Shown here one piece after another: positions 1 to 6,952 of a DNA stretch of 64,000 nucleotides (the stretch's first letter is position 1; the number at the start of each line of letters is the position of its first letter). Position numbers and translations under genes: made by a program. This DNA comes from Pelistega ratti (GTDB lineage: Bacteria > Pseudomonadota > Gammaproteobacteria > Burkholderiales > Burkholderiaceae_B): assembly GCF_009833965.1 (NCBI RefSeq), contig NZ_CP047165.1, positions 620,001 through 684,000 of the forward strand, given 5' to 3'. Below the pieces are notes generated by a model. The model was not told where the DNA came from and searched no databases. It was given only the letters and a program-made list of their open reading frames with translations.

Positions 1-223
1 CTAATACTTCAAAACATTTAGGATTGGCTTGATAAACATCATAAATAGCTTGTTCAATATCAGATTGCCCTAATAAGTAATTCAACTGATTAAGTTGAAG
101 CTCAATCTTTTTGACATTAGTGCGTACTTTATCAAAATCCGTAAAATCAGATAATTTAACATTTGTTTGAGAAAAACTATCTAAAAATTTATTAAAATCC
201 TTACTCACTTTATATTTCTCCAT
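1..223 (-). CDS. DpnII-family type II restriction endonuclease (GATC), N-terminal part, cut by window edge
   Basis: Partial gene; 74 codons are visible, starting at the ATG at 223 and running off the left edge. The start overlaps the end of the upstream Dam-type methylase by 14 bp, the usual coupling in a restriction-modification operon. From memory, the visible protein aligns along its length with the start of DpnII endonuclease: an N-terminal acidic/aromatic stretch, then TDF-KV--NV-KIE, a conserved L-LN-L-G segment and a D-YQ-NP motif near residues 64-70. The family cuts unmethylated GATC. The catalytic region lies outside the window, so intactness cannot be judged. Family assignment is fairly sure, activity unknown. 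Confidence 0.8.
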   Translation of the reverse strand, partial: MEKYKVSKDFNKFLDSFSQTNVKLSDFTDFDKVRTNVKKIELQLNQLNYLLGQSDIEQAIYDVYQANPKCFEVL

Positions 224-1121
224 TGTTAGTAATGAGAAGTTCAGTTAATACCCCTCGTTTATCTGCTTTAGCATTAATCATTCGCTTTGCCAAAACTCTA
301 TTAATAAGAAATGATTGATACAATTCATCAAAAAACTGATCTTCTGGATTAATATTTTTAGGGTCAGAGTTACTTAATATCCACTTATATCCTAATCTAT
401 CAATATATTTACAAAACTCTGCTAACCTTATCTGAGCCACATCATCAAAAACATCCTTTGCATAAGCATTAAAGCTAGAGGTCTCTGTTAATGGACGATA
501 TGGTGGGTCAAAATAAAATAAAGCATTATCTTTATTAACTTCTTTCAATACTTCTTGGTAATCGCCATTCAGAATAGTTACCTTCTGTAATTGTCGGTGA
601 ACTGCCTGTATATTTTCTTCATCACAAATAGTTGGATTTTTATAATCTCCCATTGGAACATTAAAAGATCCCGATCTATTAACTCTGTATAAACCATTAA
701 AGCAAGTACGATTTAAAAATATAAATAAAGCAGCTTGTTCTATATCATCTGATATTCTTTGGTTATACATTTCCCTTTCTTGATAATAATACTCTTTTTT
801 TTGCTCTTTATCCTCCCCCAATAGGATAAATTTATCCTGTTTTTTTCTTAATTTTTCAATTAAATCATCTGGACTATACTTAATTACACGATAAACGTTA
901 ATAAGATCGGTATTAATATCATTAATAACAACCTTAGTAAGATGGGGGAAATGATTTAATACCCAAAACAATACTGCTCCACTTCCAACGAAAGGCTCTA
1001 TATATATAAAATTTTCATTCTTAAACTGTTTAGGAATTATATTAGCAATTTCTGGTATCAACTGAGTCTTACCACCAGCCCATTTTAAAAAAGGTTTTGC
1101 TTGCGTTATCGTTGCATTCAT
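210..1121 (-). CDS. DNA adenine-N6 methylase, Dam/DpnM type (GATC), restriction-linked
   Basis: 303 residues, the normal length for D12-class adenine methylases. The SAM-binding motif FLKWAGGK is at residues 11-18, followed by EPFVGSGAV at 42-50, and the catalytic DPPY motif is at 205-208. The class methylates adenine in GATC. Overlap with a DpnII-like endonuclease immediately downstream points to the protective methylase of a DpnII/MboI-type system rather than a housekeeping Dam. Classical DpnII loci carry a second methylase (DpnA); none is visible here, though it could lie beyond the left edge. Transcribed in the same direction as the protease/ATPase pair, after a 250-bp gap that contains a terminator-like hairpin, so probably a separate transcript. 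Confidence 0.9.
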   Translation of the reverse strand: MNATITQAKPFLKWAGGKTQLIPEIANIIPKQFKNENFIYIEPFVGSGAVLFWVLNHFPHLTKVVINDINTDLINVYRVIKYSPDDLIEKLRKKQDKFILLGEDKEQKKEYYYQEREMYNQRISDDIEQAALFIFLNRTCFNGLYRVNRSGSFNVPMGDYKNPTICDEENIQAVHRQLQKVTILNGDYQEVLKEVNKDNALFYFDPPYRPLTETSSFNAYAKDVFDDVAQIRLAEFCKYIDRLGYKWILSNSDPKNINPEDQFFDELYQSFLINRVLAKRMINAKADKRGVLTELLITNNGEI

Positions 1122-1228
1122 TTAAATAATCTTTGTATTATTAATAAATAGCCATTTTAATAAAATATCTATATTTTAGGCATATTATCCCAATTTGTAA
1201 AAATAAAGTATCAGAAAGAGAAAACAAT

Positions 1229-1259
1229 AAAAAACTGATAAATTAATTTATCAGTTTTT
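1229..1259 (-). terminator. Palindromic terminator between protease gene and methylase gene
   Basis: A perfect inverted repeat (AAAACTGATAAA / TTTATCAGTTTT) with almost no loop and T-runs on both strands. It lies about 110 bp past the stop of the S8 protease gene and would separate that transcript from the methylase. Confidence 0.6.
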
Positions 1260-1371
1260 CCCTAAAAATATACACTTATATAAGATTACTACAGAAATAA
1301 TTCAAGTAATAGAGAGTAATTTTAATTATCCTCATAAAGTATTTGATTTTAATAAGTATACTTTCAATATT

Positions 1372-3627
1372 TTATTCAAATTCAATTTCTTCTTCTGATG
1401 TATTATAAATATCAATTCTATTTTCCACATCAATTTTATTCACCAACCAACCTCTAAACAAACATTGTTGTATAAATTCTTGTATTCGATTTATACCATT
1501 TACTTCTTTTAAAGTAACTACCATACCAAATTTGAGATTTTCTCCATCACCAGAGTTCAATCGTTCCTTTGTTTTAATACTTATACCCCATAAACCATTT
1601 GCTTTTTTTATTTTAGGTTTTTTCTGTTTTCCTGAAGGTGTTCTTATATTTTCCCGAATATGTTTAACATTATCCCATTTTCTATATAACTGACGTGCTG
1701 TTCCTTCATATAATAGCAGTTTCCCCTCATCAGATTGTTTATTATCATTAATAGAATCAATACTCTCTTTCCCATTCTTTGTTTTTTTTAATCTACCAAA
1801 ATGAATATCCATCTCTGTATTTGTATAGTCTACTCCCTGATTTCTAGAACAATTAGGGAAATAACACAAGGTAGCCCTTGAAACAAACGGCTGTTTTTGT
1901 TTATCCTCTGGAATAGGAATATTATAATTATAAGTATCAAATTTTTCTGAAATTCCATTAATCATAAATTTGATTTCATCATCTGGAGTTTTGATAATGT
2001 CATTAATATTAATAGGAACAACACCATATCCTATTAATTGGGAACTATATAGCTGATTCTTCCAACCAGTTGCTGAATCAATTATTAACGCTTTTGCTAA
2101 CTCTCTTGTTAATCCTAATATATTTATCAGGTAAGCTAATTTTCTTGCTATCCATGGAGCAGCAAATGAAGTTCCTTTAACAAAAGTTTCACCAACGGGA
2201 GAACATGTTCTTATTCTTTGCGTATTGTCTCCCCCATAATAACTTACATCAGGTTTATTAAAAAAAGATAACACTAGCCCTTCTCTTGAGTAGTCAACAG
2301 GTTTATTATCAAATCCTACAGAATTAACAACTAATGAATTAATAGAATCCGCTGGGGCACCAATTCTCTTAATATTCAAATTTCTGGATTTATTTGTACC
2401 AGCTACAACAAATATAACATCATTTTCATATTGAATCTTATCTAAAATAGCCGCTTCAGGAGAAATAAAATTTGTATTTATTTCCATTGAAGACCCTAAC
2501 GATAAATTCCAGACTTTAATATCTTTATTAGACTCAACTATCTCTTTAATAGCTCTTAAAACTGTAAATGAACTAAATCTTCCACTAGTAGCAACCCCAA
2601 AATGTCTTGCTCTAAATCGACCACATCCATCATTCAGATTTGGATTTATACTTGCACCATCAACAATAATAGATGTTACCATCGTTCCATGCCTATAATC
2701 CTCTTCAGATAGTTCAATTTCACTATCAAGCATATTTTTAAATTCAACCCACTCCGAAAAATATACATTCTTATCAAACATAGTGTCTATAACACCAATA
2801 GTTGGTTCATTATTAGGGCTGGGTATAGAATATGCTAAATTTTCACCATTATAAAAATCTTCCTTATCTAAAGATGAAATATCACTTACAGCCATTGAAA
2901 TTAAATATGGCGCTTTAGATTTCAATAAATTATATTGATCTGGTGTAAGCAAAATAGTAGTTTCGTCAATACTTCGTACATCTAAAAAATTTATATTTAG
3001 CTGATCCATTATATCAGCAGTTTTAGTCCCTGTATCATAGATTGTTATTATTGCATTTTCTTGCAAATTACTAGTATCTCTTTCAACCCCAAATTTTTCT
3101 AAATAATACGAATCTACTACAATATTAACAAACCTACTTTTTGAAATTTCAACTCCATCTTTACTTTTAAAAAGAGGTTTTAACGTATTGTGATTAATAT
3201 CAGATATATTACTATAAGTAATCTTATCACCAAAATTATTCCTGATTATAGAAATCACTATATCAAGATTATTCACTGCCTCTCTTAAAATTTTATAATT
3301 TACACAATGAGTTATAATGTGTTTTTTACTTTCTCCTTGAGTGAATTTAGCTCCTACGATAGAATTATTATTTTTTCTACTACTACTTTCTAATATTCCC
3401 TTTATTCTATTACTTTTTGCTATAACGTCTGTATAGTATGCACTTACAAGTGGCTTTATTGATAACTTCTCCTTATCCCAAAATGCAATAACATTTAGTA
3501 AATTTTGTTTTAAATTCATCAGATGTTCAATAGTAACATATTTATCCTTAGGGATATTTGATGGTCCTAGTTTACTGCCAAAATCTTTTTGTTCAAATCT
3601 ACCTTTTAATTGAAGAATTTCATTCAT
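1372..3627 (-). CDS. Subtilisin-like (S8) serine protease, partner of AAA+ ATPase; putative defence protein
   Basis: 751 residues with no signal peptide, so probably cytoplasmic. The S8 catalytic triad is visible: Asp281 in IGVIDT, His313 in RHGT and Ser487 in GTSFAAPW. An AGTN motif at 409-412 probably supplies the oxyanion-hole Asn (N412). About 270 residues precede the protease domain and about 230 follow it (Cys587 and Cys592 near the start, then a Lys-rich linker); I do not recognise either part. The gene starts 6 bp after the stop of the AAA+ ATPase gene, so the two are co-transcribed. Cytoplasmic subtilases paired with AAA+ ATPases recur in bacterial accessory and defence loci, and the neighbouring DpnII system supports a defence role here by inference. 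Substrate unknown. Strongly AT-rich compared with the core genes. Confidence 0.85.
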   Translation of the reverse strand: MNEILQLKGRFEQKDFGSKLGPSNIPKDKYVTIEHLMNLKQNLLNVIAFWDKEKLSIKPLVSAYYTDVIAKSNRIKGILESSSRKNNNSIVGAKFTQGESKKHIITHCVNYKILREAVNNLDIVISIIRNNFGDKITYSNISDINHNTLKPLFKSKDGVEISKSRFVNIVVDSYYLEKFGVERDTSNLQENAIITIYDTGTKTADIMDQLNINFLDVRSIDETTILLTPDQYNLLKSKAPYLISMAVSDISSLDKEDFYNGENLAYSIPSPNNEPTIGVIDTMFDKNVYFSEWVEFKNMLDSEIELSEEDYRHGTMVTSIIVDGASINPNLNDGCGRFRARHFGVATSGRFSSFTVLRAIKEIVESNKDIKVWNLSLGSSMEINTNFISPEAAILDKIQYENDVIFVVAGTNKSRNLNIKRIGAPADSINSLVVNSVGFDNKPVDYSREGLVLSFFNKPDVSYYGGDNTQRIRTCSPVGETFVKGTSFAAPWIARKLAYLINILGLTRELAKALIIDSATGWKNQLYSSQLIGYGVVPININDIIKTPDDEIKFMINGISEKFDTYNYNIPIPEDKQKQPFVSRATLCYFPNCSRNQGVDYTNTEMDIHFGRLKKTKNGKESIDSINDNKQSDEGKLLLYEGTARQLYRKWDNVKHIRENIRTPSGKQKKPKIKKANGLWGISIKTKERLNSGDGENLKFGMVVTLKEVNGINRIQEFIQQCLFRGWLVNKIDVENRIDIYNTSEEEIEFE

Positions 3628-3633
3628 TATTAA

Positions 3634-4668
3634 TTATTCCTTTAACTCTCTTGATACTTGACTTTTAGAAACACCTGTTAATATTTCAATTTCTCTAACT
3701 GTAAAACCATGATTTTGTAAATTTTTTAAACTTTTTCTACTATTTGTAGATACCACTGAATACAATCTTCTCAGATAATCATATTCATCGTTAGGATTAC
3801 TAAACGCTAATGATGTTTTAATAATATTTTTTAACTCTCCTGGGTATGGTATGACCTCCATCAAAGAAATTATTTTTTTAAATAAACGAATATTTCTAGC
3901 AACATTTTTAAATTTAGACAGATAGTGATTTAATATAATTTCTGATATATCAATCAAATCTTCTCGTGAATATCTATTAAAATCTATAATAGAGTCAAAC
4001 CTACGTACCAATGCTTTATCAAAATGTTTATACAAATTGGTTGTAGCTATAAGTAGAGTTTTATTATTTAACTCATCTAAACCTTTTAATACTGAGGTTG
4101 TTGCTCTACCCATTTCTCTAAGATCTTTTGAATCAATTCTATCTAATGCTAAAGCATCTATTTCATCAAATAAAATTACTATTTTTTCAGGAGTAAGTAA
4201 ACTGTTAATTTCATTAAATAACTCGGCTATATTCTTTCCTGTTTGACCTAACTTACTATCTATTAAAGAAGCAAAGTCCACCATAAAAAGATCTCTTCCT
4301 AATATTCGTGCTATATGCTTAACAGTTTCTGTTTTACCTGTACCAGGAGCACCTTGAAACAAAAACCGATTTACACCAATTCCATACTCAGCAGCATTAA
4401 CTATTCCTACAATATCCGCTTTTATTTCTTCAGGAAGAGGCAGTGGATCTCCATTCACCTCTATTTTTCTAACAAATATCAAATCTTCTTTATTTATTTG
4501 TGGAATAAATGTACTTGCATTAGAAAGAAGAGCCATTATATATTCTGATAATTGATAGTCTCCTAATTTATCAAACTCATTAGCAATTTGGTATGCTTCA
4601 TTTCTAAATCCTGAATCATTATTTTCAACATAGTACTTTATTAAATTAATAATATTAGCCTTTTTCAT
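3634..4668 (-). CDS. AAA+ ATPase with C-terminal helix-turn-helix, paired with S8 protease
   Basis: 344 residues, first gene of the two-gene operon. Walker A GAPGTGKT is at 106-113, Walker B VILFDEID at 164-171, a sensor-1 TTN at 209-211 and an arginine-finger-like RRFD at 222-225, giving a complete classical AAA+ core. Residues 323-343 (VREIEILTGVSKSQVSRELK) read as a helix-turn-helix, unusual for a plain AAA+ unfoldase, so the protein may also bind DNA. It could remodel substrates or gate the partner protease, and could autoregulate through the paired GGGACA sites upstream; both are inferences. The N-terminal 80 residues are unassigned. Base composition is foreign-looking, like its partner. 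Confidence 0.85.
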   Translation of the reverse strand: MKKANIINLIKYYVENNDSGFRNEAYQIANEFDKLGDYQLSEYIMALLSNASTFIPQINKEDLIFVRKIEVNGDPLPLPEEIKADIVGIVNAAEYGIGVNRFLFQGAPGTGKTETVKHIARILGRDLFMVDFASLIDSKLGQTGKNIAELFNEINSLLTPEKIVILFDEIDALALDRIDSKDLREMGRATTSVLKGLDELNNKTLLIATTNLYKHFDKALVRRFDSIIDFNRYSREDLIDISEIILNHYLSKFKNVARNIRLFKKIISLMEVIPYPGELKNIIKTSLAFSNPNDEYDYLRRLYSVVSTNSRKSLKNLQNHGFTVREIEILTGVSKSQVSRELKE

Positions 4669-5731
4669 TTAAATTACCTACCACACTACTTTATCTATAA
4701 TTCTAACACAAAAGGGACAAAAAATAATATTTTGGGACACTTTTGATTATAAAACATTTGAAACTGAAGTAGATTAACCTTAAATATCACTCTATTTTTT
4801 CAGTTTTTAGTTATTCTTTTAATATTTTCATTTATCAAATTAAGCTGAAACTCATCTTCTTTTAAAATAAAGTACTTTCGATTTATATCATTATATTTTC
4901 AAATTTCAAGTTTCCTAGACTTAAAATTATTCAACACTTTTTATCTATCATCTCAAAAACCCAAAACACCAACTTTCCTAACTGTATCTCACTCTCTTTC
5001 CCCTTTATTATAAGCATTAAAATAACTTTCATCTAACTCAAGTTTTCCTCAAAATATCATCAGATTCAAAGAATAAATAATAGTAATAATTTAATGAATT
5101 TTATATAAAATATCAGTAACTAAACAAGCAGTAGCTTTTAACGCCAAAATTTAAGAAACTTTTTCTGTATAAATTTCTTTACTTTAAAATAACCTATCTT
5201 CATTTTTATAGATTAGGTATGTCTTCAATTTAAAAATAACAAAAATCTATCGCATAATAATCAATATAACCTTTATAAACAACTAAAATTATAATCAGAA
5301 TTGTCTTAATAGATCATCATTAAGAATAGCTTGAAATAACCCATGAAAAATCACAGCTACTATTAATAGAAAAATAATCACATGGTAATAGGAACTATTT
5401 TATGGAAATAATATACAAGTACATCTTGACAAAATATTCCAGAAACACTTTATCCTTAAAAGACAGCCTATAATCGTTTTAATTACAATATAAATAAAAG
5501 TTCATTGAAGAAACTAGCACAAAACATTAAGGGAACACTGTATGTTGCCTGTATAATTATTCATTATGAAATTGAATTGTAAGTTATCTAATAACCCCCA
5601 TCCTTCAAATAAATATATTTTTTCTCACCCTTAATAAACACCTCATCTCTTCCCCCAAAGCATGTCCCTTTCTTGTCATATTACTTCGCTAGAATAACCA
5701 TTTCTTACTTAAACTATCAGGTTATTCATTT
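4669..5731. other. 1-kb AT-rich gene-free stretch
   Basis: No open reading frame with codon structure, no RNA gene and no clear IS end is seen. The DNA is extremely AT-rich with frequent stops in all frames. The left end holds the candidate promoter/operator of the ATPase operon; the right end must carry the promoter of the secreted protein at 5732, but no convincing -35/-10 pair was found there. It probably marks the decayed boundary of the island. Confidence 0.6.
4714..4739. promoter_or_regulatory. Two GGGACA direct repeats upstream of the ATPase/protease operon
   Basis: GGGACA occurs at 4714-4719 and 4734-4739, exactly 20 bp apart (about two helical turns), 45-70 bp upstream of the ATPase start. 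On the minus strand a plausible -35 (TTGTCC, within the proximal copy) and -10 (TAGATA) with 17-bp spacing follow. The arrangement suggests an operator; the HTH of the ATPase is a candidate binder. Weak evidence. Confidence 0.3.
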
Positions 5732-6952
5732 ATGAAAAAGATTCTTTTTTCTTCTATTATCCTTAGTACATTATCATTTGCACTTCACACTACTGCAAAA
5801 GCCGATAATACCACCCTTATTGCTTTTGCTAAATTAGATGCTGAAACCTATGCAGAAGGCCCTCAATCAGGCAAAGCAACTAAAGCAGCAAATGGTATTG
5901 CCCCTCCCTTTAAAAGCCAGCCTGTACAGGGCTTTTCAGCCGTATTAAAAAACAAAGATGGTACGTATATGGCAATGTCTGATAATGGCTTTGGCACTCA
6001 AGATAACTCTAGTGATTTTTTACTTCGTATCTATCACATTAAACCAAATTTTAAAACTTCCCAAGGTGGAACAGGCAATGTAGAGGTGCTTGGTTTTATT
6101 TCATTACGTGACCCTAATAAACTCATTCCATTTCCTATTGTTAATCAAGAAACCAATGATCGATTACTAACAGGAGCTGATTTTGATATTGAATCCTTAC
6201 AGCAAGCCGAAGATGGTAGCTATTGGATTGGTGATGAGTTTGGTCCTTATCTTTTACACTTTAGTGCTGATGGCATATTACTAGATGCCCCAATTACTTT
6301 ACCTAACCCTTATGTTAAAGGTCAAGAATTACGCTCACCTCAAAATCAATTTAATAAAACTCAAAAAGAGATAATTGAGCCTTTAGTACAACGCAGTGGT
6401 GGCTTTGAGGGGATGGCTCTTTCAAAAGATAAACAATTCTTATACCCTATTTTAGAAAAACCGCTTACTAATGCTGATAAAAAACAACTCATTATTTTTC
6501 AGTTTAATATAGCTAAAAAAGCCTATACCGACAATTATTACTTATTTGATTTAGATGACAAGGCAACAGCTATCGGTGATTTTCAGCTTTTTGATCATCA
6601 ATCGGGTATTATCATTGAACGTGACGATACTGAAAATGATTTAACAGGTCATAAAAAACTTATCTTAGTAAAACTTGGCGCATCTGGTCAAGCAGTTGAA
6701 CGTAAAGAACTAGTTGATTTAATGCGCATTCATAATCCTCACTCATTATATAGTCCCTACCGTGAAGGGGATATTGGAACAGGTAAAGATTTCGCCTTTC
6801 CTTTTATAACAATTGAGGATATTGTGATTGAATCACCAGATACATTAACCATCTTTAATGATAATAATTTCCCCGGTTCATCAGGACGCAATGCCAAACT
6901 AGCAGATGATAATGAAATCATTCAGATTAAGCTAGATCAACCATTATTTTAA
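5732..6952 (+). CDS. Secreted esterase-like/phytase-like beta-propeller protein
   Basis: 406 residues with a clear Sec signal peptide (MKKILFSS, hydrophobic core, cleavage near AKA-DN at about residue 24). The mature part matches the 'esterase-like activity of phytase' family: AEGPQSG near the start, an NG-FGTQDNSSDF segment, the FDIESL...DGSYWIGDEFGP block around residues 150-170, GGFEGMAL near 220 and an ERDD block near 290. Members are periplasmic or secreted and predicted to form beta-propellers; substrates are mostly unknown. Monocistronic, with a terminator immediately downstream. Family fairly sure, reaction not assigned. Confidence 0.8.
   Translation: MKKILFSSIILSTLSFALHTTAKADNTTLIAFAKLDAETYAEGPQSGKATKAANGIAPPFKSQPVQGFSAVLKNKDGTYMAMSDNGFGTQDNSSDFLLRIYHIKPNFKTSQGGTGNVEVLGFISLRDPNKLIPFPIVNQETNDRLLTGADFDIESLQQAEDGSYWIGDEFGPYLLHFSADGILLDAPITLPNPYVKGQELRSPQNQFNKTQKEIIEPLVQRSGGFEGMALSKDKQFLYPILEKPLTNADKKQLIIFQFNIAKKAYTDNYYLFDLDDKATAIGDFQLFDHQSGIIIERDDTENDLTGHKKLILVKLGASGQAVERKELVDLMRIHNPHSLYSPYREGDIGTGKDFAFPFITIEDIVIESPDTLTIFNDNNFPGSSGRNAKLADDNEIIQIKLDQPLF

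Follow-up and report, generated by a model that had tools for sequence, protein, structure and literature searches.

A divergent ietAS pair in Pelistega ratti with a conserved repeat pair before its ATPase gene: a likely toxin and guard module

The ietAS gene pair, in which an AAA+ ATPase gene lies directly upstream of an S8 protease gene, was reportedly named as a defence system by Gao in 2020. Its described relatives include the iteAS equivalogs of NCBIfam (NF042959 and NF042956), SgiAT of Salmonella genomic island 1 (SGI1) and IetAS of pTiC58. According to passages of PMC5006074, expression of the SgiAT protease lowered transformation 100- to 1000-fold and proved toxic to E. coli in less than 30 min, the toxicity of SgiT was neutralised by the ATPase SgiA, and the regulation of SgiAT remains to be identified; a passage of PMC9958689 (2023) states that how ietAS works has yet to be described. 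Here we describe a pair with the same gene order and the same kinds of protein as SgiAT and the pTiC58 pair, of a different clade, in a stretch of 64,000 nucleotides from Pelistega ratti (assembly GCF_009833965.1, contig NZ_CP047165.1, positions 620,001 to 684,000; hereafter the window). The analysis documents the family of the pair, the pairing of its genes, their catalytic residues, the spread of the clade, and a repeat pair in the promoter with its link to a helix-turn-helix of the ATPase. We consider it likely that this divergent clade of ietAS is a mobile toxin and guard pair whose ATPase, IetA, reads the repeats of its own promoter. The two genes are as follows.

3634..4668, minus strand: ietA, classical AAA+ ATPase of 344 amino acids (aa), opening ATG at 4668; proposed guard (antitoxin) and DNA binder
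1372..3627, minus strand: ietS, S8 subtilisin-like protease of 751 aa; proposed toxin

The two open reading frames (ORFs; 4668-3634 and 3627-1372) are separated by 6 bp, as already noted in a first-pass annotation made from the letters alone, which had read the pair as a proteolytic defence module to be compared with defence-system models. In this comparison the PADLOC profiles matched IetA at E 7e-42 and IetS at E 1e-59 (the score limits of these profiles are not displayed), and the locus shows the PADLOC ietAS layout, an AAA+ gene adjoining an S8 gene on the same strand. An AAA+/S8 module of the defence kind was rightly recognised, but hidden Markov models match it to ietAS/SgiAT, a kind already known. 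When a profile of 96 IetS relatives was compared with one of 22 IteS proteins of the NCBI-named clade, the two aligned with a probability of 99.9% over residues 266-738, so that the protease and C-terminal region are homologous over about 470 residues; the C-terminal piece of IetS alone reached 94.6%. The ATPase tail of the NCBI-named pairs also resembles a helix-turn-helix by eye. Unlike those pairs, however, the window proteins score far under the NCBI cut-offs. Together with the PADLOC matches, this means that the pair is, judged by its sequence, a divergent clade of ietAS in the wide (PADLOC) sense and not NCBI's equivalog.

The association of the two genes is not due to chance, since in 84 of 87 loci the gene immediately upstream of ietS, on the same strand, is ietA. 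This count includes the window's own locus and the near copy L088, and for two of the 84, L023 and L079, the sequence covers only part of IetA; two of the three exceptions begin at a contig end (L056, L089) and the third has no IetA (L075).

Upstream of ietA, a conserved pair of TGTCCC repeats was found. No published description of it was found in the open-licence PubMed Central literature, and it appears to be new.

4714..4739, minus strand: candidate operator upstream of ietA, two direct TGTCCC repeats (4739-4734 and 4719-4714), 20 bp from start to start; from motif counts
4700..4705, minus strand: -10-like hexamer TAGAAT just 3' of the second repeat; our reading of the sequence

TGTCCC was present on the operon strand within 250 bp before ietA in 82 of 84 loci, GGGACA in 1 of 84. 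With up to one mismatch per hexamer, the pair at 20-21 bp was detected in 81/84 ietA upstreams versus 4/931 control upstreams, and the exact pair at 20 or 21 bp in 59/84 versus 0/931; the controls were the upstreams of mechanical ORFs of at least 100 aa in the same loci, ietA promoters excluded. No exact pair was found in 1.34 Mb of flanks, both strands included. Successive sites (at most one mismatch to TGTCCCA) were 20 bp apart in 50 intervals, 21 bp in 29 and at other spacings in 8. The 84 loci come from a set of 90 (L004-L094 minus L088, a near copy of L086; L001-L003 are duplicate or unrelated), from which L056, L075, L079 and L089 (incomplete IetA start or short upstream) and L091 and L092 (other clade) were left out; L142, a copy from Macrococcus, is not among them. 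Within the genus, the window's pair is the sole exact pair in its own 2.33-Mb genome, and among seven genomes the exact pair is observed only in the two that carry ietAS, at ietA in each and at one extra place in the second, G001. A -10-like hexamer follows site 2 in 76/81 loci, and -35 and -10 hexamers bracket it in 57/81, the window not among the latter; both counts are without a shuffled control.

In the viral contigs L159, L178, L185 and L200, TTGTCCCA forms arrays that run in both orientations. The array of L200, the one inspected, extends over the end of an ORF that resembles a helicase/primase by eye, and on this ground the idea that phages titrate IetA was dropped.

The features of IetA that bear on the repeat are the following.

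4330..4353, minus strand: IetA Walker A GAPGTGKT, residues 106-113; from the alignment
3640..3711, minus strand: IetA C-terminal helix-turn-helix, residues 320-343; from the predicted model and conservation

IetA matches the Pfam AAA family (PF00004, E 9e-25). The complete Walker A and B motifs and arginine finger reported by the first-pass annotation were confirmed in an alignment of 89 IetA proteins, where G106, P108, G109, G111, K112 and T113 (Walker A), D168 and E169 (Walker B), T209-N211 (sensor) and R222/R223 (arginine fingers) are all invariant. The helix-turn-helix that it placed at the end of the ATPase is likewise seen in the model as three helices (314-319, 324-331 and 335-343). Searched alone, this element matched nothing firm in the Protein Data Bank (PDB). 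Residues 320-343 are nevertheless the best conserved of six IetA segments, with a mean of 0.85 (AAA core 0.79, preceding linker 0.45); R325, S336 and R340 are present in 89/89 proteins and K335 in 86/89 (R in the remaining three).

These observations suggest that IetA may bind its own promoter through the helix-turn-helix at the TGTCCC pair. Two Macrococcus copies (L094 and L142) are without the repeat, and their IetA has S or N at position 325 and I at 335, yet retains S336 and R340; loss of the repeat together with R325 and K335 is the change expected if the IetA tail reads the repeat. A host regulator could bind the pair in place of IetA, whose helix-turn-helix is its presumed reader. We regard this as quite improbable, because the motif travels with the cassette across Bacillota, mycoplasmas, Patescibacteria, Methanobrevibacter and others (by record title) and the window's proteobacterium, where a common host factor is not expected, because the exact pair is absent from the five congeners without ietAS, and because in Macrococcus the motif and the helix are altered in the same copies.

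Spaced by two turns, the direct repeats could accommodate several subunits of one ring along a single DNA face, somewhat as in DnaA. No TGTCCC pair was noticed in the few promoters of other ietAS clades examined, which in this differ from the present clade. In those other clades with such a tail, different words recur at the same spacing, the clearest case being a 12-of-12 identity at 21 bp in Hymenobacter. The best repeat spacing was 20 or 21 bp in 10/18 tail-bearing loci versus 3/12 loci of other clades without an evident tail, and with a narrower range of spacings considered the figures were 11/18 versus 3/12. Other adjacent spacing pairs accounted for 0-6 of the 18 loci; the exception was 21/22 (9 loci), which has spacing 21 in common with 20/21. 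The 18 loci were taken from 21, without L140 and L136, which are near copies, and L132, which is unannotated. Paired repeats at the same spacing in other clades are suggestive only, the tail groups having been sorted by eye, some members being related and the L131 upstream measuring only 74 bp. In L111-L122, relatives of the pair from genomes of the same class, IetA ends without an evident helix-turn-helix and the promoters are without a clear preference for repeats at 20/21 bp.

Several observations weigh against the reading of a divergent ietAS pair regulated by its own ATPase. Both proteins match the NCBIfam equivalogs below their curated cut-offs (143 of 900 and 111 of 510 bits), and the N-terminal 262 residues of IetS cannot be aligned with confidence to those of the NCBI-named IteS (probability 0.8%, E 0.07), although a colinear motif, AKSNR or AKSHR, is kept in each of the two clades. 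The 84 promoters include near copies (for example L013/L014, L022/L036, L040/L044/L045 and L066/L069) and are not 84 independent events; the Macrococcus loss of motif and helix residues is a single event in related copies. The backwards control pattern also occurs once in the window's own genome, and in the genus it is found at 7 places in 5/7 genomes versus 3 places for the real pattern, so that there it is the position of the TGTCCC pair, not its number, that is telling. An 8-base version of the pair was found in at least 120 loci of viral contigs, of which 0/120 encode IetA or IetS; the pair alone is thus not diagnostic. The window promoter has no good -35. In passages of PMC9927553, the activity of the sgiAT promoter seemed to rise in the presence of SGI1 in two backgrounds, which is unlike simple repression. 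As for IetS, the Pfam I9 prodomain family matched 0/17 and 0/22 sequences, so that IetS is not filed as an I9 protein, and the residues after its prodomain-like part are not conserved, with no conserved processing site. The same passages of PMC9927553 report no LexA shift and leave self-regulation of sgiAT open, and those of PMC5006074 and PMC9927553 describe no ATPase-bound operator, unlike what is proposed for the present pair. We infer that IetA would repress its promoter rather than activate it.

The protease was divided into the following regions.

2023..2811, minus strand: IetS protease domain, residues 273-535, triad D281/H313/S487; from Pfam and the alignment
3073..3627, minus strand: IetS N-terminal alpha/beta region, residues 1-185, carrying the AKSNR motif; from the model
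2872..3063, minus strand: IetS prodomain-like region, residues 189-252, beta-alpha-beta-beta-alpha-beta; from the model alignment
1510..1995, minus strand: IetS C-terminal beta domain, residues ~545-706, as in KP-43/SubHal; from the model, the left boundary being a reading of it

The S8 domain (PF00082, E 5e-32, residues 273-535) carries D281, H313, N412 (oxyanion position) and S487, invariant in 96 aligned IetS, in agreement with the Asp281/His313/Ser487 triad of the first-pass annotation; no signal peptide was seen either, as judged by eye without a predictor. No solved IetS structure was found by sequence search, the best matches spanning the protease domain, and the structures used are single-chain predictions. 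In the model, the part from residue 189 and the protease domain align to pro-subtilisin E (3whi) and EpiP S393A (3t41), with the prodomain-like fold docked on the protease. The C-terminal beta domain, common to the NCBI-named IteS, aligns with that of the KP-43/SubHal subtilases (5fax, 1wmd). This confident model thus places the residues from 189 like a subtilisin prodomain and those up to 706 like the KP-43 C-terminal domain, an arrangement that appears to be new. The large protease termini, put forward as the least described parts of the pair, are therefore mostly accounted for; the description still fits residues 1-185. Unlike subtilisin precursors, KP-43 and SubHal, IetS is cytoplasmic by eye, has 185 extra N-terminal residues and an ATPase partner, and is without a conserved processing site. 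Control of IetS as a zymogen, by its prodomain-like part, would be consistent with the model.

By analogy with SgiAT, from which the relation of toxin and guard is borrowed, the pair could work as follows. At rest, the two proteins would be co-produced in amounts governed by IetA at the TGTCCC repeats, and IetA would keep the cytoplasmic, prosubtilisin-shaped IetS harmless. Phage action or loss of the element would then remove or occupy IetA, and the freed IetS would cut cell proteins, so that the infected or cured cell stops. Anti-phage activity and a phage trigger are presumed here.

The first-pass annotation had proposed that the ATPase senses or presents a target. In the tested relative, the partners are a protease toxin and an ATPase antitoxin (passages of PMC5006074), which favours a guard first of all. 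IetA could still be a loader that recognises specific phage or host proteins and delivers them to IetS, much like the ATPases of Lon, FtsH and the proteasome, its helix-turn-helix only setting expression. This seems unlikely to us: in SgiAT the protease is toxic alone and the ATPase abolishes its toxicity, S8 proteases are not known to be closed chambers, and the ATPase fold by itself reveals no function. A more specific form of the toxin and guard reading, which we put forward tentatively and hold to be somewhat unlikely, is that of a DNA-reading AAA+ guard. The subunits of one ring would sit on repeats two helical turns apart while the same ring silences the prodomain-shaped protease; displacement or depletion of IetA, by phage takeover or element loss, would both open the promoter and free the protease. 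This DnaA-like logic of ATPase and helix-turn-helix would extend to several ietAS clades with different repeat words. As to TRIP13 of CBASS, another system compared, no HORMA or nucleotidyltransferase gene was recognised by eye among the ORFs read near the pair, most of them without a profile scan.

The distribution of the pair is patchy. Among 60 relatives besides its own genome, a strong match was detected only in G001, of the same genus (50% identity), and a weak one in G008 (E 1e-4). By contrast, the window IetS is 81-82% identical to copies in Faecalicoccus pleomorphus and Amygdalobacter indicium (at most 85% in other sources), and IetA is 82-86% identical to copies in Faecalicoccus, Streptococcus anginosus, S. 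rubneri and Metamycoplasma equirhinis (at most 88% in another source). Because of the 81-86% identity to Faecalicoccus, Streptococcus and mycoplasma copies, the window pair was probably transferred recently. A quick tree built from 96 IetS places the window copy beside those of Amygdalobacter and Faecalicoccus and the G001 copy elsewhere, which suggests at least two arrivals of ietAS in the genus. Judged by the titles of records and bins for the best 80 of 165 loci, members of the clade occur in Bacillota, Mycoplasmatota, Patescibacteria, Gastranaerophilales, Treponema, Desulfovibrio and Methanobrevibacter; bins can include stray contigs. A housekeeping AAA+/protease pair, for which no support was found, is hardly credible given the near absence from relatives and the patchy cross-phylum distribution; neither a conserved core locus nor a housekeeping substrate, which the first-pass annotation had named as grounds for abandoning its view, was encountered.

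The clade is also present at five places in viral contigs and in five plasmid-collection records whose match spans 80% or more of the protein; one of these records has the size of a chromosome. In three viral contigs (L086, L087 and L088), terminase-like genes (named by eye) lie downstream of ietAS, and prophages seem to carry this clade. The pair could then be a selfish module for plasmid or island maintenance, its anti-phage effect being incidental. We take this possibility seriously while considering it doubtful. Toxin-antidote systems stabilise pTiC58 (passages of PMC4231840), sgiAT is reported to maintain SGI1 (passages of PMC5006074), clade members are found on plasmids, with the Macrococcus copy L094 adjoining a replication gene, and the copies beside terminase-like genes point the same way. 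Against maintenance, the window copy lies on a 2.3-Mb contig and adjoins a restriction system, reading of nearby ORFs by eye revealed no integrase, and PADLOC lists the family as defence. As separate observations on the NCBI-named pairs, the iteAS of E. coli M1 (L141) stands among genes that are prophage-like by name (ydaV, DUF1627, DUF1367), and an Acidovorax query matched 77/5426 E. coli genomes.

The ietAS pair of the window has a restriction system as its neighbour.

210..1121, minus strand: D12 adenine methylase of the DpnII system; from a profile match and genome reading

As the first-pass annotation had stated, a DpnII system is next door and the DNA is very AT-rich (GC 0.28 over positions 1-6000 versus 0.31-0.47 in the rest of the window). 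Downstream of the pair, the system comprises three genes, the D12 methylase, a PF04556 endonuclease (E 1e-89; its gene starts at 223 and extends past the window edge) and a second N6/N4 methylase (genome 606-625 kb); it lies mostly outside the window and is followed by a lysS-like gene. This gene and a phytase-like gene flank the DpnII-ietAS block, and the ietA promoter is separated from the latter by an AT-rich stretch of about 1 kb (4740-5731) with no convincing gene. An empty insertion site was sought in congeners. The two flanking genes are about 31 kb apart in G006, far apart on one contig in G005 and on different contigs in the other four, two of which gave only weak phytase-like matches; a clean insertion could therefore not be demonstrated.

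Several relatives of the pair sit beside restriction genes, on plasmids or in viral contigs. Among the nearest ietAS neighbours, a PADLOC family reaches 5/139 members versus 1/102 among genes about 7 kb off, and the two sets matched 296 and 71 PADLOC families at all, in a comparison without per-protein counts and with sets of unequal size. The near set holds 139 of the 141 proteins, out of 151, that met the size limit (the IetA of L005 itself and one giant L006 protein were excluded), the distant set 102 of 104 (two L088 copies were excluded). Enrichment of defence families is only a tendency. A HAD-type phosphatase gene (PF12710) lies behind ietS in seven loci (L040, L042, L044, L045, L047, L056 and L059), immediately after it in five (L040, L044, L045, L047 and L056); that of L040, the one scanned alone, is the PADLOC candidate PDC-S34, and a third partner of the pair is possible. 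Protein P0232 (447 residues) has a C5 cytosine methylase end that reads in frame into IetA, and C5-methylase-like genes are also near ietAS in L006, L022, L036 and L077.

Record titles place the clade in hosts as distant as Methanobrevibacter, Patescibacteria, mycoplasmas and a proteobacterium, which makes it a widely travelled protease module. The structural reading of IetS points to a region that may keep the protease silent, and the repeat pair with the conserved helix-turn-helix residues makes regulation by the ATPase directly testable.

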